Positions 48,508 through 64,000 of a stretch of 64,000 bases of DNA are shown piece by piece. Positions within the stretch are counted from its first letter, which is position 1. Each line of letters starts with the position of its first letter. Under the pieces are notes generated by a model. That model ran no database searches, was not told the DNA's origin, and was given only the letters and a program-made list of their open reading frames with translations. A program made the position numbers and the translations under genes. The stretch is from Phycicoccus sp. Root101 (GTDB lineage Bacteria > Actinomycetota > Actinomycetes > Actinomycetales > Dermatophilaceae), in assembly GCF_001426245.1 (NCBI RefSeq), contig NZ_LMCM01000006.1, positions 346,865 through 410,864 of the forward strand, in the 5' to 3' direction.

Positions 48508-48558
48508 GTGAGCGCGAGGTGTCGGAATCGCACAGGGATTCCGACACCTCGCGCTCAC
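48508..48558. terminator. Perfect 22-bp hairpin between GNAT gene and thrS
   Basis: GTGAGCGCGAGGTGTCGGAA plus two bases pairs perfectly with its reverse complement ending at 48558, with a 7-nt loop. It sits between two convergent genes and can terminate both. A smaller TCTCAC/GTGAGA hairpin is just upstream at 48487-48502. No T-tract follows on the plus strand. Confidence 0.8.
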
Positions 48559-53548: not shown

Positions 53549-53579
53549 CCCTCCGTATGGCGCCGCGCCATACGGAGGG
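53549..53579. terminator. katG terminator made of two inverted octamers
   Basis: CCCTCCGTATGGC and GCCATACGGAGGG form a perfect 13-bp stem with a 5-nt loop, 22 bp after the katG stop. The stem contains GTATGGCG at 53555 and CGCCATAC at 53566, the octamer family described in the findings. Confidence 0.85.
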
Positions 53580-58501: not shown

Positions 58502-59362
58502 TCAGGCGCCTGCCTCCACGTCGAGGGTCAGCACGAGGTGCTCACGCACGCCCTCGCGGCCGGACCGGAGACCCACGACCGTGCGCGACCCGCTGTCGTC
58601 GACCACGAGCTCCACCGTCGAGGGGAGCAGGACCGGCTTGCGGAACCACACCTCGGAGGTGGACGGCTCGCTCGCCTCCGGCCCGAGGGTGGCGAGGGTC
58701 CGCGCCGCCGTCCACATCCCGTGCGCGATGGCGCGCGGGAACCCCATCGCCTTCGCGCTGAGGGCGTGCAAGTGTATGGGGTTCACGTCACCGGACACGG
58801 CGGCATACGCACGGCCCAGTCCCTCGGGCAGGCGCAGGACGCCGGCGGGAGGCCCCTGGGGCATCGGTGGACTCGACTGGGGCGCCACGGCGTTCGCGTC
58901 GCCTCGACCGCGTCGCAGGTAGGTGCTGCGTCCCTCCCAGACCCGCTCCCCGTCGACGTCCACCTCGGTCACGAGGTCGACGAGCTGACCCTTGGCGTGC
59001 GGGCGCAGGTCGGCGGCGTGTACGGTGACGTCGAGGCGGTCGTCCGCGGTCAGGCGACGGTGCACGGTGATGCGGTTCTCGAGGTGCACCAGTCCCGGCA
59101 GCGGCAGCGGGAAGTCACGTCCGGCCATGAGCGCGACCTGGAGAGGAAACCCCAGCACGTGCGGGTAGGTGTGCGGCAGCACGTCTCCCCCGGCGAACCG
59201 GCACAGGTGCTGGTAGTCGAGCAGGTGCGCGCGGTCGACCTGGACTGCGGCCAGGAGCAGCCCGTGCGCGGGCAGCGCCCCGCCCCGTCCACGCTGGGTG
59301 AGCGCAGCCCGGGCGAACAGCGGTCCGAGGGCAGGTGTTGACGCGACCTCGCGCAGCTCCAC
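58502..59362 (-). CDS. MaoC-like 3-hydroxyacyl dehydratase (HtdX type)
   Basis: 286 aa double hot-dog enzyme. The hydratase motif is GDVNPIHLHALSAKAMGFPRAIAHGMW in pieces: SGDVNPIHLHALSAKAMGF and RAIAHGMWTAART. GTG 59362 is 1 bp after the fabG4 stop. It hydrates or dehydrates acyl-CoA or acyl-ACP. The block htdX-fabG4-fadA2 matches Rv0241c-Rv0243 of Mycobacterium in content, here all on one strand. Confidence 0.88.
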   Translation of the reverse strand: MELREVASTPALGPLFARAALTQRGRGGALPAHGLLLAAVQVDRAHLLDYQHLCRFAGGDVLPHTYPHVLGFPLQVALMAGRDFPLPLPGLVHLENRITVHRRLTADDRLDVTVHAADLRPHAKGQLVDLVTEVDVDGERVWEGRSTYLRRGRGDANAVAPQSSPPMPQGPPAGVLRLPEGLGRAYAAVSGDVNPIHLHALSAKAMGFPRAIAHGMWTAARTLATLGPEASEPSTSEVWFRKPVLLPSTVELVVDDSGSRTVVGLRSGREGVREHLVLTLDVEAGA

Positions 59363-59363
59363 G

Positions 59364-60704
59364 TCAGGCCCCCAACAGGCTCTGGCCGCAGACACGGACG
59401 ACGTTGCCGGTCACTCCCGCGTTGGCGTCCTGGCTGAACCACGCGATCGTCTCGGCGACGTCGACGGGCAGGCCGCCCTGGCTCAGCGAGTTGAGCAGGC
59501 GCCCGACCTCCCGCGTCGCGAAGGGGACCTTGGCGGTCATCTCGGTCTCGATGAACCCCGGGGCCACCGCGTTGACGCTGATGCCCCGACGGACCAGGTC
59601 GGCGTCGACCGAGAGGGCGTCGACGAGGCCGATGACCCCGGCCTTGGACGCGGCGTAGTTGGTCTGGCCACGGTTGCCCGCGATCCCCGCGATCGAGGAC
59701 ACGAGGACGACGTGCCCACCGTCGCGGATCCCGTTCTCCCCCAGCAGGACCTCGTTCATCCGCAGGATCGAGCCGAGGTTGACGTCGAGCACCGAGTCCC
59801 ACCGGGACTCGTCCATGTTGGCGAGCAGCTTGTCGCGGGTGATCCCCGCGTTGTGGACGACGACGTCGAGGCCCCCGTGGCGGCCGGTGGCGTCCAGGAT
59901 CCGCTGCCCCGCGTCGGCCGCCGTGACGTCGACCTGCAATGCGGTTCCGCCGACCCGGTTCGCGGTGCGGGCCAGCGACTCCCCCGCCGCCGGGATGTCG
60001 ACGCAGACCACGTGCGCTCCGTCGCGGGCGAGCACGTCGGCGATCGAGGCACCGATCCCCCGAGCAGCCCCGGTCACGACCGCGACCTTGCCCGCCAACG
60101 GAAGGGCCCAGTCGGCGGGCTCGGCCGGGGTGCCCGGTCCGACCCGGACGACCTGGGCGTCGACGTAGGCGGAGCGGCCGGAGAGCAGGAACCGCACCGC
60201 GGCGTCGGTGTTGGCCTCGGCGCCCTCGGCGACGAGGACGAGGTTGGCCGTGGCTCCGAAGCGCAGCTCCTTGCCGACCGAGCGGGTGATTCCCTCGAGC
60301 GCGCGACGCGACGCCGCCTGCGCGACCGACGTGGCGGACGCCGGATCCGCACCCACGACGACCACCCGGCCGGACGCCCGCAGCGCCTTCACCGCGGGGG
60401 CGAGGACGACGCGGACGAGGTCGAGGTCTCCGGGCTCCGTGACGGTCGTGAGGTCGAGGACCACCGCGCCGAGCCTGGACCCCGCCGGCACCGCGTCGAC
60501 GACCTCCACCCCCTCGTCGGAGAGCAGCGTGCGGACGTGCTCGGCCACCGGGGCGTCGGCGAGCCCTGCGACGAGGACCGGACCCTCCACGAGCGGTGCG
60601 TCCGCGGCATACCGGCGCAGGCGCACGGGCCGAGGGAGGCCCAGCTGCGCCGCGAGCTTCGTGCCGACGGCACTGTTGACGAATCCTGCGTACGCGCCGG
60701 TCAT
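59364..60704 (-). CDS. fabG4: 3-oxoacyl reductase FabG4-type, high molecular weight SDR
   Basis: 446 aa from ATG 60704. The N-terminal half (about 1-200) is a degenerate Rossmann domain and the C-terminal half is a full SDR: VAVVTGAARGIGASIADVL, VVHNAGITRDKLLANMD, SSIAGIAGNRGQTNYAASK (Ser-Tyr-Lys). The two-part form defines FabG4, which uses NADH and acts on acyl-CoA. It is 1 bp from both neighbours. Confidence 0.92.
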   Translation of the reverse strand: MTGAYAGFVNSAVGTKLAAQLGLPRPVRLRRYAADAPLVEGPVLVAGLADAPVAEHVRTLLSDEGVEVVDAVPAGSRLGAVVLDLTTVTEPGDLDLVRVVLAPAVKALRASGRVVVVGADPASATSVAQAASRRALEGITRSVGKELRFGATANLVLVAEGAEANTDAAVRFLLSGRSAYVDAQVVRVGPGTPAEPADWALPLAGKVAVVTGAARGIGASIADVLARDGAHVVCVDIPAAGESLARTANRVGGTALQVDVTAADAGQRILDATGRHGGLDVVVHNAGITRDKLLANMDESRWDSVLDVNLGSILRMNEVLLGENGIRDGGHVVLVSSIAGIAGNRGQTNYAASKAGVIGLVDALSVDADLVRRGISVNAVAPGFIETEMTAKVPFATREVGRLLNSLSQGGLPVDVAETIAWFSQDANAGVTGNVVRVCGQSLLGA

Positions 60705-60705
60705 G

Positions 60706-61998
60706 TCAGGCCGCCTCGAGGATCGCCATGACACCCTGCCCACCGGCGGCGCAGATCGAGATCAGGCCACGCGCGCCGGATCCCCTCTCCTCCAACGACT
60801 TGGCGAGGGACGCAACGATCCGTCCACCGGTCGCCGCGAAGGGGTGGCCGGCGGCCAGGGACGAACCGTTGACGTTGAGCCTGGTGCGGTCCAGCGCCCC
60901 GATGGGCGCGTCGAGACCGAGCCTGTCGCGGCAGAACGACTCGCTCTCCCAGGCCGCGAGCGTGCACAGCACGGTGGCCGCGAAGGCCTCGTGGATCTCG
61001 ACGAGGTCGAAGTCCTGCAGCTTCATGCCCTGGCGTTCCAGCAGGTGGGGCAGCGCGTAGGCGGGAGCCATGAGCAGTCCCTCGTGGCCGGTGACGTAGT
61101 CGACCGCCGCGGTCTGCGCGTCGACGAGGTGGGCCAGGACGGGCAGGCCGCGCTCGGCCGCCCACTCGTCGCTGCCGAGCAGCACGACGGAGGCACCGTC
61201 GGTCAGCGGCGTCGAGTTGGCTGCCGTCATGGTGGCGCCGTCGCCCCGGCCGAAGACCGGCTTGAGCTTCGCGAGCTTGTCGACCGAGGAGTCCGCGCGC
61301 AGGTTCTGGTCCCGGGTGAGGCCGAGGTAGGGCGTCAGGAGGTCGTCGAAGAAGCCGCGGTCGTAGGCCGCTGCGAGGTTCCGGTGGCTCTGCACGGCCA
61401 GCTCGTCCTGGGCCTCACGCGTCACGCCCCAGTGCGCCGCCGTCTGGGCCATGTGCTCGCCCATCGACAGGCCGGTGCGCGGCTCGACGTTGCGCGGGAT
61501 CTCGGGGACGACCTGACCGGGGCGAAGGCGCGCGACCGCCTTGAGTCGCTGGCCGGGGGTCTTCGCCCGGTTGAGCGCCAGCAGCGTCTCGCGCAGCCCC
61601 TCGTTCACGGCGATGGGCGCGTCGGAGGCCGTGTCGGTACCGCCGGCGATGCCGGACTCGACCTGACCCAGGGCGATCTTGTTCGCCACGAGGACGGTCG
61701 CCTCGAGCCCGGTGCCGCAGGCCTGCTGCACGTCGTACGCCGGGGTGGTCGGCGCGAGGCTCGAACCCAGGACGGACTCACGGGTGAGGTTGAAGTCGCG
61801 GCTGTGCTTGAGCACCGCTCCGGCGGTGACCTCGCCGACCGGCTCCCCCGCCAGCCCGAACCGGGCCACGAGGCCTTCGAGGGACGCGGTGAGCATGTCC
61901 TGGTTGGAGGCCTTGGCGTACGTGCTGTTGGCACGGGCGAACGGGATGCGGTTGCCACCGATGACGGCGGCGCGGCGGGGCTTCGCTGATGCGGCCAC
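60706..61998 (-). CDS. fadA2: Acetyl-CoA acetyltransferase (thiolase, FadA2-type)
   Basis: 430 aa. Nucleophile Cys is in VQQACGTGLEATVLVANKIA, the His in VEIHEAFAATVLCTLAAW, NVNGSSLAAGHPFAATGGR and the second Cys in ISICAAGGQGVMAI. It cleaves or condenses acyl-CoA thioesters. GTG 61998 has AGGAG 6 nt upstream. It is first in its operon and faces the TetR gene across a 37-bp inverted repeat. Confidence 0.93.
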   Translation of the reverse strand: MAASAKPRRAAVIGGNRIPFARANSTYAKASNQDMLTASLEGLVARFGLAGEPVGEVTAGAVLKHSRDFNLTRESVLGSSLAPTTPAYDVQQACGTGLEATVLVANKIALGQVESGIAGGTDTASDAPIAVNEGLRETLLALNRAKTPGQRLKAVARLRPGQVVPEIPRNVEPRTGLSMGEHMAQTAAHWGVTREAQDELAVQSHRNLAAAYDRGFFDDLLTPYLGLTRDQNLRADSSVDKLAKLKPVFGRGDGATMTAANSTPLTDGASVVLLGSDEWAAERGLPVLAHLVDAQTAAVDYVTGHEGLLMAPAYALPHLLERQGMKLQDFDLVEIHEAFAATVLCTLAAWESESFCRDRLGLDAPIGALDRTRLNVNGSSLAAGHPFAATGGRIVASLAKSLEERGSGARGLISICAAGGQGVMAILEAA

Positions 61999-62031
61999 GA
62001 GGTGCTCCTGGAGGTCGAGGGTTACTGATAC

Positions 62032-62068
62032 CGACGGTAGCAGGTACGGCTGGTACCTGCTACCGTCG
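62032..62068. promoter_or_regulatory. 37-bp inverted repeat, probable TetR operator
   Basis: CGACGGTAGCAGGTAC (62032-62047) and GTACCTGCTACCGTCG (62053-62068) are exact reverse complements, separated by GGCTG. A nested palindrome TACCG-A-CGGTA is at 62029-62039. It covers the TACCGT -10 (62061-62066) of the TetR gene and lies 34 bp before the fadA2 start, so one site could control both. Confidence 0.85.
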
Positions 62069-62073
62069 ACAGC

Positions 62074-62724
62074 GTGAGCACCACCACCGACGGTCGCAGC
62101 ACCCGCTGGGACGAGCACCGCGCCAGCCGGCGCCGTGAGCTCGTCGAGGCCACCCTGCGCGCCATCCGGGAGCACGGTGCCGGGGTCGGCATGGACGACA
62201 TCGCGGCGGCAGCCGGCACGTCCAAGACGGTCTTCTACCGCCACTTCACCGACCGCTCCGGCCTGTATGCCGCCGTGTCGGAGAGCGTGGATGCGCGGAT
62301 CCTGCGCGACCTCGGGTCCGCCATGGGGGGCGGGTCGCCCGACCTCGCCCGCGCCGGGGGGTCACCCCGGGCGATCATCGCCGCGGCGATCGACTCCTAC
62401 CTCGCCCTCGTCGAGCGCGATCCGGAGGTCTACCGCTTCGTCGTCAACGCCCCCCTGCTCGACGCCCCGTCCGGTGGCGACCCCGCCCTGGCCGTGACGA
62501 GCCACATCGCCGACCAGATGTCCGCGCTGATCGGCGCAGCCCTCGCCTCGGTCGGCCGCGACACCTCGCCCGCCGCGGTGTGGGGGGCCGGCGTCGTGGG
62601 CATGGTCCGGGCGGCTGCCGACCAGTGGCTGGCGGACCCCTCGCTGACCCGCGCCGACCTCACCGCACACCTCACCGACCTGGCCTGGGGCGGACTGTCC
62701 GCCGCCTGGTCCGACCCGTCCTGA
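62074..62724 (+). CDS. TetR-family transcriptional regulator
   Basis: 216 aa. The helix-turn-helix (about 22-65) reads RRRELVEATLRAIREHGAGV, MDDIAAAAGTSKTVFYRHF, TDRSGLYAAV; the rest is a ligand-binding helical domain. GTG at 62074 has TACCGT 7 nt upstream, so the transcript is probably leaderless. By position it should repress the fatty acid genes on both sides when no acyl-CoA or acid is bound. Confidence 0.92.
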   Translation: MSTTTDGRSTRWDEHRASRRRELVEATLRAIREHGAGVGMDDIAAAAGTSKTVFYRHFTDRSGLYAAVSESVDARILRDLGSAMGGGSPDLARAGGSPRAIIAAAIDSYLALVERDPEVYRFVVNAPLLDAPSGGDPALAVTSHIADQMSALIGAALASVGRDTSPAAVWGAGVVGMVRAAADQWLADPSLTRADLTAHLTDLAWGGLSAAWSDPS

Positions 62725-62741: not shown

Positions 62742-64000
62742 ATGACCGACCTTGCCACCGAGCTGCGCCGCGCCCTCGACGGGCGGTGGGCCCACATCAA
62801 GGACGAGGCCCGCACCGACCTGTCCCCCAGCGACTTCGCCGCCCCCGAGGCGGAGCTGACCATGGAGGAGTACCGCGCGCGGGTCGCCGACCAGGTCCAG
62901 AAGATCGCCGCGACCGGTCACCCCGCGCGCGGCTTCCCCAAGGAGGCCGGCGGCAACGGCGACCTCGGCGGGTCGGTGACGGCGTTCGAGATGCTCGGCC
63001 ACGCCGACCTGTCGGTCATGGTCAAGGCCGGCGTGCACTGGGGCCTCTTCGGTGGCGCGGTGGCCAACCTCGGCACCGCCGGGCACCACGCGGCATACCT
63101 GCCTCGCATCATCGACGCCACGCTCCCGGGCTGCTTCGCGATGACGGAGACCGGGCACGGCTCCGACGTGCAGTCGCTCGGCACCACGGCGACGTACGAC
63201 CCCGCGACCGACGAGCTCGTCGTCAACACGCCGGACCTGCGCAGCCGCAAGGACTACATCGGTGGCGCCGCCCGCGACGGCAGGCTCGCCGCGGTCTTCG
63301 CCCAGCTCATCACCGACGGTGAGAGCCACGGCGTGCACTGCGTCCTCGTGCCCATCCGCGACGAGGACGGCACGCCCCTGCCCGGCGTCACCATCGGCGA
63401 CTGCGGGGCCAAGGCAGGCCTGGCGGGCGTGGACAACGGCCGGCTGTCCTTCGACCACGTCCGGGTGCCGCGCACCAACCTGCTCAACCGGTACGGCGAC
63501 ATCGACGACCAGGGGCGGTACACCTCCCCCATCGAGAACTCGACCCGCCGTTTCTTCACCATGCTCGGCACCCTCGTCCGCGGCCGGGTCAGCGTCGCCG
63601 GTGCCGCGGGCTCGGCCACGCGGACCGCGCTCACCCTCGCCGTGACGTATGCCGGTCACCGCCGCCAGTTCACCCCGCCCGGTGCCGAGGACGAGGTCGT
63701 CCTGCTCGACTACCGGGCCCACCAGCGCAAGCTCCTCCCGGCCCTCGCGAAGTCCTACGCCCTCCAGCTCGCCCAGAACGAGCTCGTCTCGCTGATGCAC
63801 GACGTCCAGAGCGCTCCCGACGAGGTCGACGAGCACGGCCAGCGCGAGCTCGAGGCCCGTGCCGCCGGCATCAAGGCGGTCTCCACGGCCCACGCCACCA
63901 CGACCATCCAGATGTGCCGGGAGGCCTGCGGTGGCGCGGGGTACCTCGCCGTCAACCGGCTGCCCGCGCTCAAGGCCGACACCGACGTGTTCACGACCTT
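62742..64000 (+). CDS. Acyl-CoA oxidase/dehydrogenase (3' end outside the window)
   Basis: 419 codons are visible with no stop. The ACOX-type flavin-binding motifs are CFAMTETGHGSDVQSLGTTA, YIGGAARDGRLAAVFAQLI and GLAGVDNGRLSFDHVRVPRT. AAGGAG lies 5 nt before the ATG. ACOX transfers electrons to oxygen; members in actinobacteria may use other acceptors. It follows the TetR gene by 17 bp and completes a beta-oxidation set with htdX, fabG4 and fadA2. Confidence 0.9.
   Translation, partial: MTDLATELRRALDGRWAHIKDEARTDLSPSDFAAPEAELTMEEYRARVADQVQKIAATGHPARGFPKEAGGNGDLGGSVTAFEMLGHADLSVMVKAGVHWGLFGGAVANLGTAGHHAAYLPRIIDATLPGCFAMTETGHGSDVQSLGTTATYDPATDELVVNTPDLRSRKDYIGGAARDGRLAAVFAQLITDGESHGVHCVLVPIRDEDGTPLPGVTIGDCGAKAGLAGVDNGRLSFDHVRVPRTNLLNRYGDIDDQGRYTSPIENSTRRFFTMLGTLVRGRVSVAGAAGSATRTALTLAVTYAGHRRQFTPPGAEDEVVLLDYRAHQRKLLPALAKSYALQLAQNELVSLMHDVQSAPDEVDEHGQRELEARAAGIKAVSTAHATTTIQMCREACGGAGYLAVNRLPALKADTDVFTT

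Follow-up and report, generated by a model that had tools for sequence, protein, structure and literature searches.

The 75-bp gap between the divergent genes tetR (plus strand) and fadA (minus strand) of Phycicoccus sp. Root101 contains a 31-bp element, GNTAC-N5-GTANC-N-GNTAC-N5-GTANC (62027-62057), which is conserved across 121 aligned upstream regions of orthologous loci and consists of two adjacent dyads with centres 16 bp apart. The element is probably the operator of the neighbouring TetR protein, by which tetR would regulate itself and the divergent operon: two dimers would bind, both operons would be repressed, and an acyl-CoA would bring about release. All positions refer to the window, i.e. 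the whole stretch of 64,000 nucleotides that was analysed.

The features of the locus are summarized in Table 1; the gene names fadA2, fabG4 and htdX are labels of the first-pass annotation. The GTG start of fadA was read by eye and is preceded by AGGAG at 62005-62009, and the fabG4-like gene has an ATG at 60704 just beyond the fadA stop, while the listed open reading frame starts at a GTG at 60743.

Table 1. Features of the tetR-fadA locus (window coordinates)
Feature	Position	Strand	Remarks
MaoC-type dehydratase gene (htdX)	58502..59395	-	MaoC_dehydratas, 53.4 bits
fabG4-like 3-oxoacyl reductase gene	59364..60704	-	PRK08261, 625 bits (cut-off 410)
fadA, acetyl-CoA C-acetyltransferase	60706..61998	-	PRK09268, 765.6 bits (cut-off 539)
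Dyad 1, GATAC-CGACG-GTAGC	62027..62041	.	form GNTAC-N5-GTANC; centre 62034; contains TACCGACGGTA; putative TetR-dimer site
Inverted repeat	62032..62068	.	16-nt arms, 100% complementary, 5-nt spacer; repeat search
Left arm, CGACGGTAGCAGGTAC	62032..62047		
Probable extended -10 of fadA, TGCTACCGT	62034..62042	-	within left arm and dyad 1
Dyad 2, GGTAC-GGCTG-GTACC	62043..62057	.	centre 62050, the palindrome centre; putative second TetR-dimer site
Right arm, GTACCTGCTACCGTCG	62053..62068		
Probable extended -10 of tetR, TGCTACCGT	62058..62066	+	outer part of right arm
tetR	62074..62724	+	216 aa, GTG start; TetR_N and TetR_C_32 domains; DGRxxRWxxHRxxRR near N-terminus
Acyl-CoA oxidase/dehydrogenase-type gene	62742..64000	+	3' of tetR; runs past window end; ACOX_C_alpha1, 122.2 bits

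The first-pass annotation had described an inverted repeat with exact 16-bp arms and a 5-bp spacer in this gap, overlapped on its left arm by a second palindrome. Both were found as described; the second palindrome (TACCGACGGTA, 62029-62039) is the core of the other dyad of the element, dyad 1. Perfect inverted repeats with arms of at least 10 bp and spacers of at most 10 bp number four in the whole window (arms of 22, 16, 15 and 13 bp), and 20 dinucleotide shuffles of the window gave a mean of 3.4 repeats with an arm of at least 10 bp and a longest arm of 10-13 bp. The 16-bp repeat thus beats chance by the length of its arms, and one longer repeat exists in the window. The longer one, at 48508-48558, is perfect, with 22-bp arms and a 7-bp spacer; a further perfect repeat, with 15-bp arms and a 1-bp spacer, lies at 53549-53579.

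The first-pass annotation had also taken the long arms to be a TetR operator between the two divergent units. An operator at this place is borne out by its conservation at the orthologous loci; the long exact arms as the unit of recognition were rejected, since they are found in few loci and the two-dyad core is what is kept. Exact arms of at least 14 bp about 62050 occur at 14 of the 121 aligned loci (seven from Pedococcus, the genus of the window, six from Janibacter, and one from another Dermatophilaceae metagenome-assembled genome), and two loci of one family (L051 and L069, family f6) have 14-bp exact arms about a centre displaced by 8 bp, at the register of 62042; the centre of symmetry shifts among lineages and the 31-bp core stays put. 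The flanks of the arms about 62050 covary (z of 2.7-4.0 at 6 of 11 pairs), a statistic that ignores kinship and on which no weight is placed. In the 4.38-Mb genome, the core of the repeat, GTAGCAGGTAC-N5-GTACCTGCTAC (22 specified bases), has a single place at up to 3 mismatches, as has a control pattern; exact matches to the arm sequence GAYRGTAGCAGGTAC are these two arms only, and at up to 3 mismatches the arm is not enriched over the control (86 and 98 versus 204 and 190 places).

Orthologous loci were collected at several depths. At E <= 0.001, 56 of 58 relatives have a TetR match, paralogs counted in, and tetR orthologs adjoining a divergent fadA occur throughout the family and in several other families of the order. 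A class-wide search with an alignment of 24 TetR relatives (A1) gave matches at E <= 1e-35 in 118 of 296 genomes, paralogs included. Of the best 80 loci of a contig scan, whose names include Janibacter, Knoellia, Ornithinimicrobium, Modestobacter, Blastococcus, Geodermatophilus, Pseudonocardia and Propionicimonas, 76 have tetR and fadA in divergent orientation, and one of the remaining four lies at a contig start. The sets used below comprise 79 named loci (L098, which comes without upstream DNA, was left out), 39 same-order loci (set A) and 15 further loci from the class search, of which 4 belong to the same family or order (set B); a broken copy, L054, was left out of the sets. The 54 loci of sets A and B and the 79 named loci gave, after removal of duplicates, 124 distinct upstream regions, of which 121 were aligned (L043, L075 and L139 were dropped for low score). 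Absence of the motif from orthologous loci, which the first-pass annotation had named as a refuting outcome, was not what was found: 121 of the 124 regions have a related element at this place.

Conservation across the 121 loci sets in at 62022 and has died away by about 62066; the flanks are at background level. Counted from the fadA side, six successive half-sites match on average 2.45, 3.79, 3.79, 3.92, 3.24 and 2.68 of 4 specified bases, with 1.17 and 1.22 in the flanking registers, so that each half-site of dyad 1 scores 3.79 (about 1.2 in outside registers) and those of dyad 2 score 3.92 and 3.24; these inner values are inflated, as the alignment was anchored on the inner 31 bp, and the outer two half-sites and the flanks were unanchored. 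On the fadA side, the weak outer half-site (62021-62025; T in 89% of loci at one position) is conserved above its flanks, and the two-dimer model does not account for it.

Two further counts are free of this anchoring, a pair test and the 39-genome scan given below. For the pair test, GTANCNGNTAC 11-mers matching in 6 or more of the 8 specified bases had to be spaced exactly 16 bp apart. Such pairs occur in 69 of the 79 named loci (0.28 expected from shuffles), in 36 of the 39 same-order loci (0.16 expected) and in 9 of the 15 set-B loci, which were unused in the first matrix (0.04 expected). With 69 loci, GTANCNGNTAC tops all 256 dyads of the same shape; the alternate reading TACNGNCNGTA comes second with 60. 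The strict pair test found none in six loci of the f22 type and none in six same-order paralog loci.

The outer right half-site is bound up with the tetR promoter. A -10 box has the shape TANNNT, with a G ahead of it in the extended form, and usually lies 6-8 nt before the transcription start. TANNNT is present at the register of 62058-62066 in 64 of the 121 loci, 63 of which carry the extended -10 G, and its mirror image on the fadA side in 101 of 121; the evidence for the probable fadA -10 is weaker than for that of tetR, since the former box overlaps an operator half-site. A scan with a strict -35/-10 consensus gave no promoter pair at the locus. The tetR box ends 7 nt ahead of the GTG start, so that tetR is probably leaderless. 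At the outer register, a start could be called in 73 of the 121 loci and not in 48; of the 73, it lies 6-9 nt past the box in 54 and outside this range in 19. Among the 57 loci lacking TANNNT at the outer register, 43 carry it 16 bp upstream, and the first in-frame start codon of these follows 6-7 nt later in 29, lies inside the core in nine and at 33 nt in one, and is absent in four.

A first grouping of loci by promoter register shared bases (T39, A40) with the half-site being scored; the loci were therefore regrouped by independent criteria, for the 113 of 121 with a full register, and the outcome was the same. The outer right half-site matches 3.67 of 4 where the T that ends the -10 box is present (69 loci) and 1.18, i.e. 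background, where it is not (44 loci); by position of the start codon, it matches 3.34 where the start lies as in the window (50 loci) and 1.22 where it lies 16 bp upstream (36 loci). The four inner half-sites keep 2.89-3.94 in all four groups. This is a consistent contrast among clades, the promoter-register groups being largely clades and the orthologs kin, so that these counts are not independent events. On this comparison of sequences, the outer right half-site most plausibly is the -10 box of tetR and not operator, which leaves four operator half-sites, enough for two dimers.

The exactness of the 16-bp arms follows from this arrangement: the right arm is the half-site GTACC plus TGCTACCGTCG and the left arm is its mirror image, so that identical, outward-facing probable extended -10 boxes (TGCTACCGTCG) flank both half-sites of dyad 2. 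A striking palindrome can mislead: operator half-sites and promoter boxes are blended in the symmetry that meets the eye, and comparison alone separates them. We put forward tentatively, at slightly less than even confidence, a fuller account in which half-sites of the two-dimer operator double as promoter -10 boxes; the leaderless tetR promoter would have moved between lineages by exactly one operator pitch of 16 bp, from the inner register (Geodermatophilaceae, Pseudonocardia, several other families) to a new outer one (Pedococcus, Janibacter), with its distance to the start codon kept; the palindrome would be a by-product; and the TetR subfamily with a DGRxxRWxxHRxxRR arm would control a beta-oxidation regulon by this grammar in several families of actinobacteria.

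Since TAC and GTA alternate every 8 bp, the element can be parsed in a second way, as three 11-bp dyads GTWNCNGNWAC (62021-62031, 62037-62047 and 62053-62063, with centres at 62026, 62042 and 62058) that take three dimers. Triples at 16-bp pitch are found in 35 of the 79 named loci and 32-bp pairs in 28 of the 39 same-order loci, and three dimers would account for the weak outer half-site on the fadA side. This was the initial reading, and it was demoted once the outer right half-site was seen to track the tetR promoter register; where the tetR promoter or start lies upstream, that half-site stands at background (1.18-1.22 of 4), the outer left half-site is weak, and half-site centres only 6-8 bp apart would be short for a TetR dimer by the distances in the excerpt of PMC4150764. 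We consider three dimers unlikely.

A single dimer at the palindrome centre, 62050, with the remainder as promoter sequence and chance symmetry, would agree with the 15-17-bp operators of TetR, SimR and DesT, which take one dimer as described in part of PMC4150764, and the dyad at 62043-62057 is exact in the window. This reading must be rated as quite improbable, as half-site conservation is about equal in dyad 1 and dyad 2 (3.79 and 3.79 versus 3.92 and 3.24) and dyad 1 survives in loci with a degraded dyad 2. In four loci of the Knoellia type and similar (L093, L094, L101 and L134), a 1-bp shift spoils dyad 2, and dyad 1 and the tetR -10 persist; judging from these sequences, the second dimer may be dispensable there.

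The two-dyad core with up to 1 mismatch was found at 26 places in 21 of 39 genomes (one place for a reversed-pattern control). Twenty-two places lie just upstream of tetR, one operator (in G006) being counted twice, and adjoin fadA in all but one case (G049), where the contig ends before fadA. The other four (L174-L177) precede genes for three acyl-CoA dehydrogenases and one thiolase, each about 25-80 nt ahead of the likely start, so that the 26 places put candidate operators at beta-oxidation genes, as expected of a beta-oxidation repressor. In three of these (L174, L175 and L176), from three genera, the gene behind the core encodes an acyl-CoA dehydrogenase, which suggests the enzyme as a second shared target of the regulator. 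By genome, the core is present in 21 of the 27 whose tetR ortholog has the same placement and in none of the 12 others; it was missed at up to 1 mismatch in six of the 27 (G017, G018, G041, G043, G046 and G048).

In the home genome, a search of which the first-pass annotation had proposed, the palindrome arms are not enriched (see above), and the 31-bp core occurs in exact form only at 62027-62057, overlapping itself 16 bp further on at 2 mismatches. The next best distinct place, also at 2 mismatches, is the start of a paralogous tetR (C8:76322-76352), followed by two more at 3 mismatches; with up to 3 mismatches allowed, the control is at least as frequent as the core (8 versus 5). The paralogous tetR (locus L050, G000:C8:74901-78000; 39% identity) is divergent from an AurF-type oxygenase gene and has a related two-dyad element.

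The element overlaps -10 boxes, and its binding by TetR is itself something that we infer; it might serve another regulator or RNA polymerase only, with tetR as an incidental neighbour. The core also stands where the paralogous tetR of this genome begins, and this and the split between genomes (21 of 27 versus 0 of 12) make such a reading very improbable. An RNA hairpin or terminator, which the long exact inverted repeat might call to mind, was rejected and can practically be dismissed, as the terminator scan found no terminator-like site at the locus and, given the presumed transcription starts, about 62074 on the plus strand and 62026 on the minus strand, neither transcript would hold both arms.

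The protein encoded by tetR has the N-terminal helix-turn-helix domain of the TetR family (PF00440, 41.4 bits; cut-off 24), the C-terminal domain PF19344 TetR_C_32 (70.2 bits; cut-off 27) and a two-domain, all-helical fold in its AlphaFold2 model (mean pLDDT 85.4). The model resembles lipid-responsive TetR proteins, namely KstR (Z 16.4 over 180 residues), B. subtilis FadR (Z 16.4) and DNA-bound FasR (Z 15.9). KstR and Bacillus FadR are, by their entry titles, regulators of lipid catabolism, with 11-16% identity in the fold alignment; the likeness is one of fold, not of operators.

The closest solved sequence is FasR of M. tuberculosis (6o6n, 6o6o, 6o6p; E 4.5e-14; 27% identity with 6o6p in the fold alignment), and the window protein scores far below the curated cut-off for FasR equivalogs (NF053731, 70.5 bits versus 330). 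According to the excerpt of PMC7382501, FasR binds three inverted repeats in the fas-acpS operator, the crystal has symmetry-related dimers next to each other on a single DNA fragment, and the complex with DNA is broken by acyl-CoAs of at least C16. In our own reading, the printed 25-nt oligonucleotide holds a TAC-N6-GTA and an AAC-N6-GTA dyad 13 bp apart, whereas the operator studied here has an N5 spacer and a 16-bp pitch; FasR activates fatty acid synthesis; the window tetR is linked to fadA and ACOX-type genes.

The mechanism we propose takes repression by two dimers and release by acyl-CoA from these likenesses, as the fold matches KstR, FadR and DNA-bound FasR and the nearest solved sequence is FasR. 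Two TetR dimers would sit side by side, one on dyad 1 and one on dyad 2, and from the helical repeat of DNA an offset of 16 bp (about 1.5 turns) would place them on roughly opposite faces. The bound core would cover the fadA -10 and abut the tetR -10, so that the fadA-fabG-MaoC and tetR-ACOX operons would both be off until, by analogy with the regulators named above, a fatty acyl-CoA connected with these enzymes released the dimers; both operons would then come on together. Two dimers and joint control of both units had been suggested by the first-pass annotation, and the two dyads and the divergent anatomy largely favour this; the outer part of the right arm tracks the tetR -10 box and not the operator.

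Two-dimer TetR operators are already known, and the GNTAC-N5-GTANC pair would be another member. The excerpt of PMC4150764 lists QacR, CgmR, CprB and Ms6564 with 22-32-bp sites that bind two dimers, and for Ms6564 gives a site of 31 bp whose dimers lie about 180 degrees apart; the element described here likewise holds two adjacent dyads within a site of this size (31 bp), and its 16-bp offset would also give about 180 degrees. It differs in genes and sequence from these four, and here we infer the stoichiometry from the DNA. Distances between recognition helices are 31-38 A in TetR, SimR, QacR and CprB (same excerpt), with which the half-site centres within each 15-bp dyad, 10 bp or near 34 A apart, agree. 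FadRSa of Sulfolobus acidocaldarius, as described in part of PMC6449355, is an acyl-CoA-responsive TetR protein over lipase and beta-oxidation genes that binds as two cooperative dimers on different sides of the helix; it differs in being archaeal and in having a 30-kb cluster and four genomic sites, whereas the genome studied here has one exact site. Among the titles and opening lines of abstracts listed by the literature searches, none dealt with this operator code or with this TetR subfamily. The code, GNTAC-N5-GTANC twice at 16 bp, is concrete and testable for a widespread actinobacterial subfamily of TetR proteins and ties it to beta-oxidation genes.

The helix-turn-helix of the window protein is preceded by the stretch DGRxxRWxxHRxxRR (residues 6-20), which holds 9 of the 17 invariant columns of alignment A1 and most of whose invariant positions are kept at 90% or more in an 80-row alignment (A2); to judge from the sequence, it is possibly an extra DNA-contacting arm.
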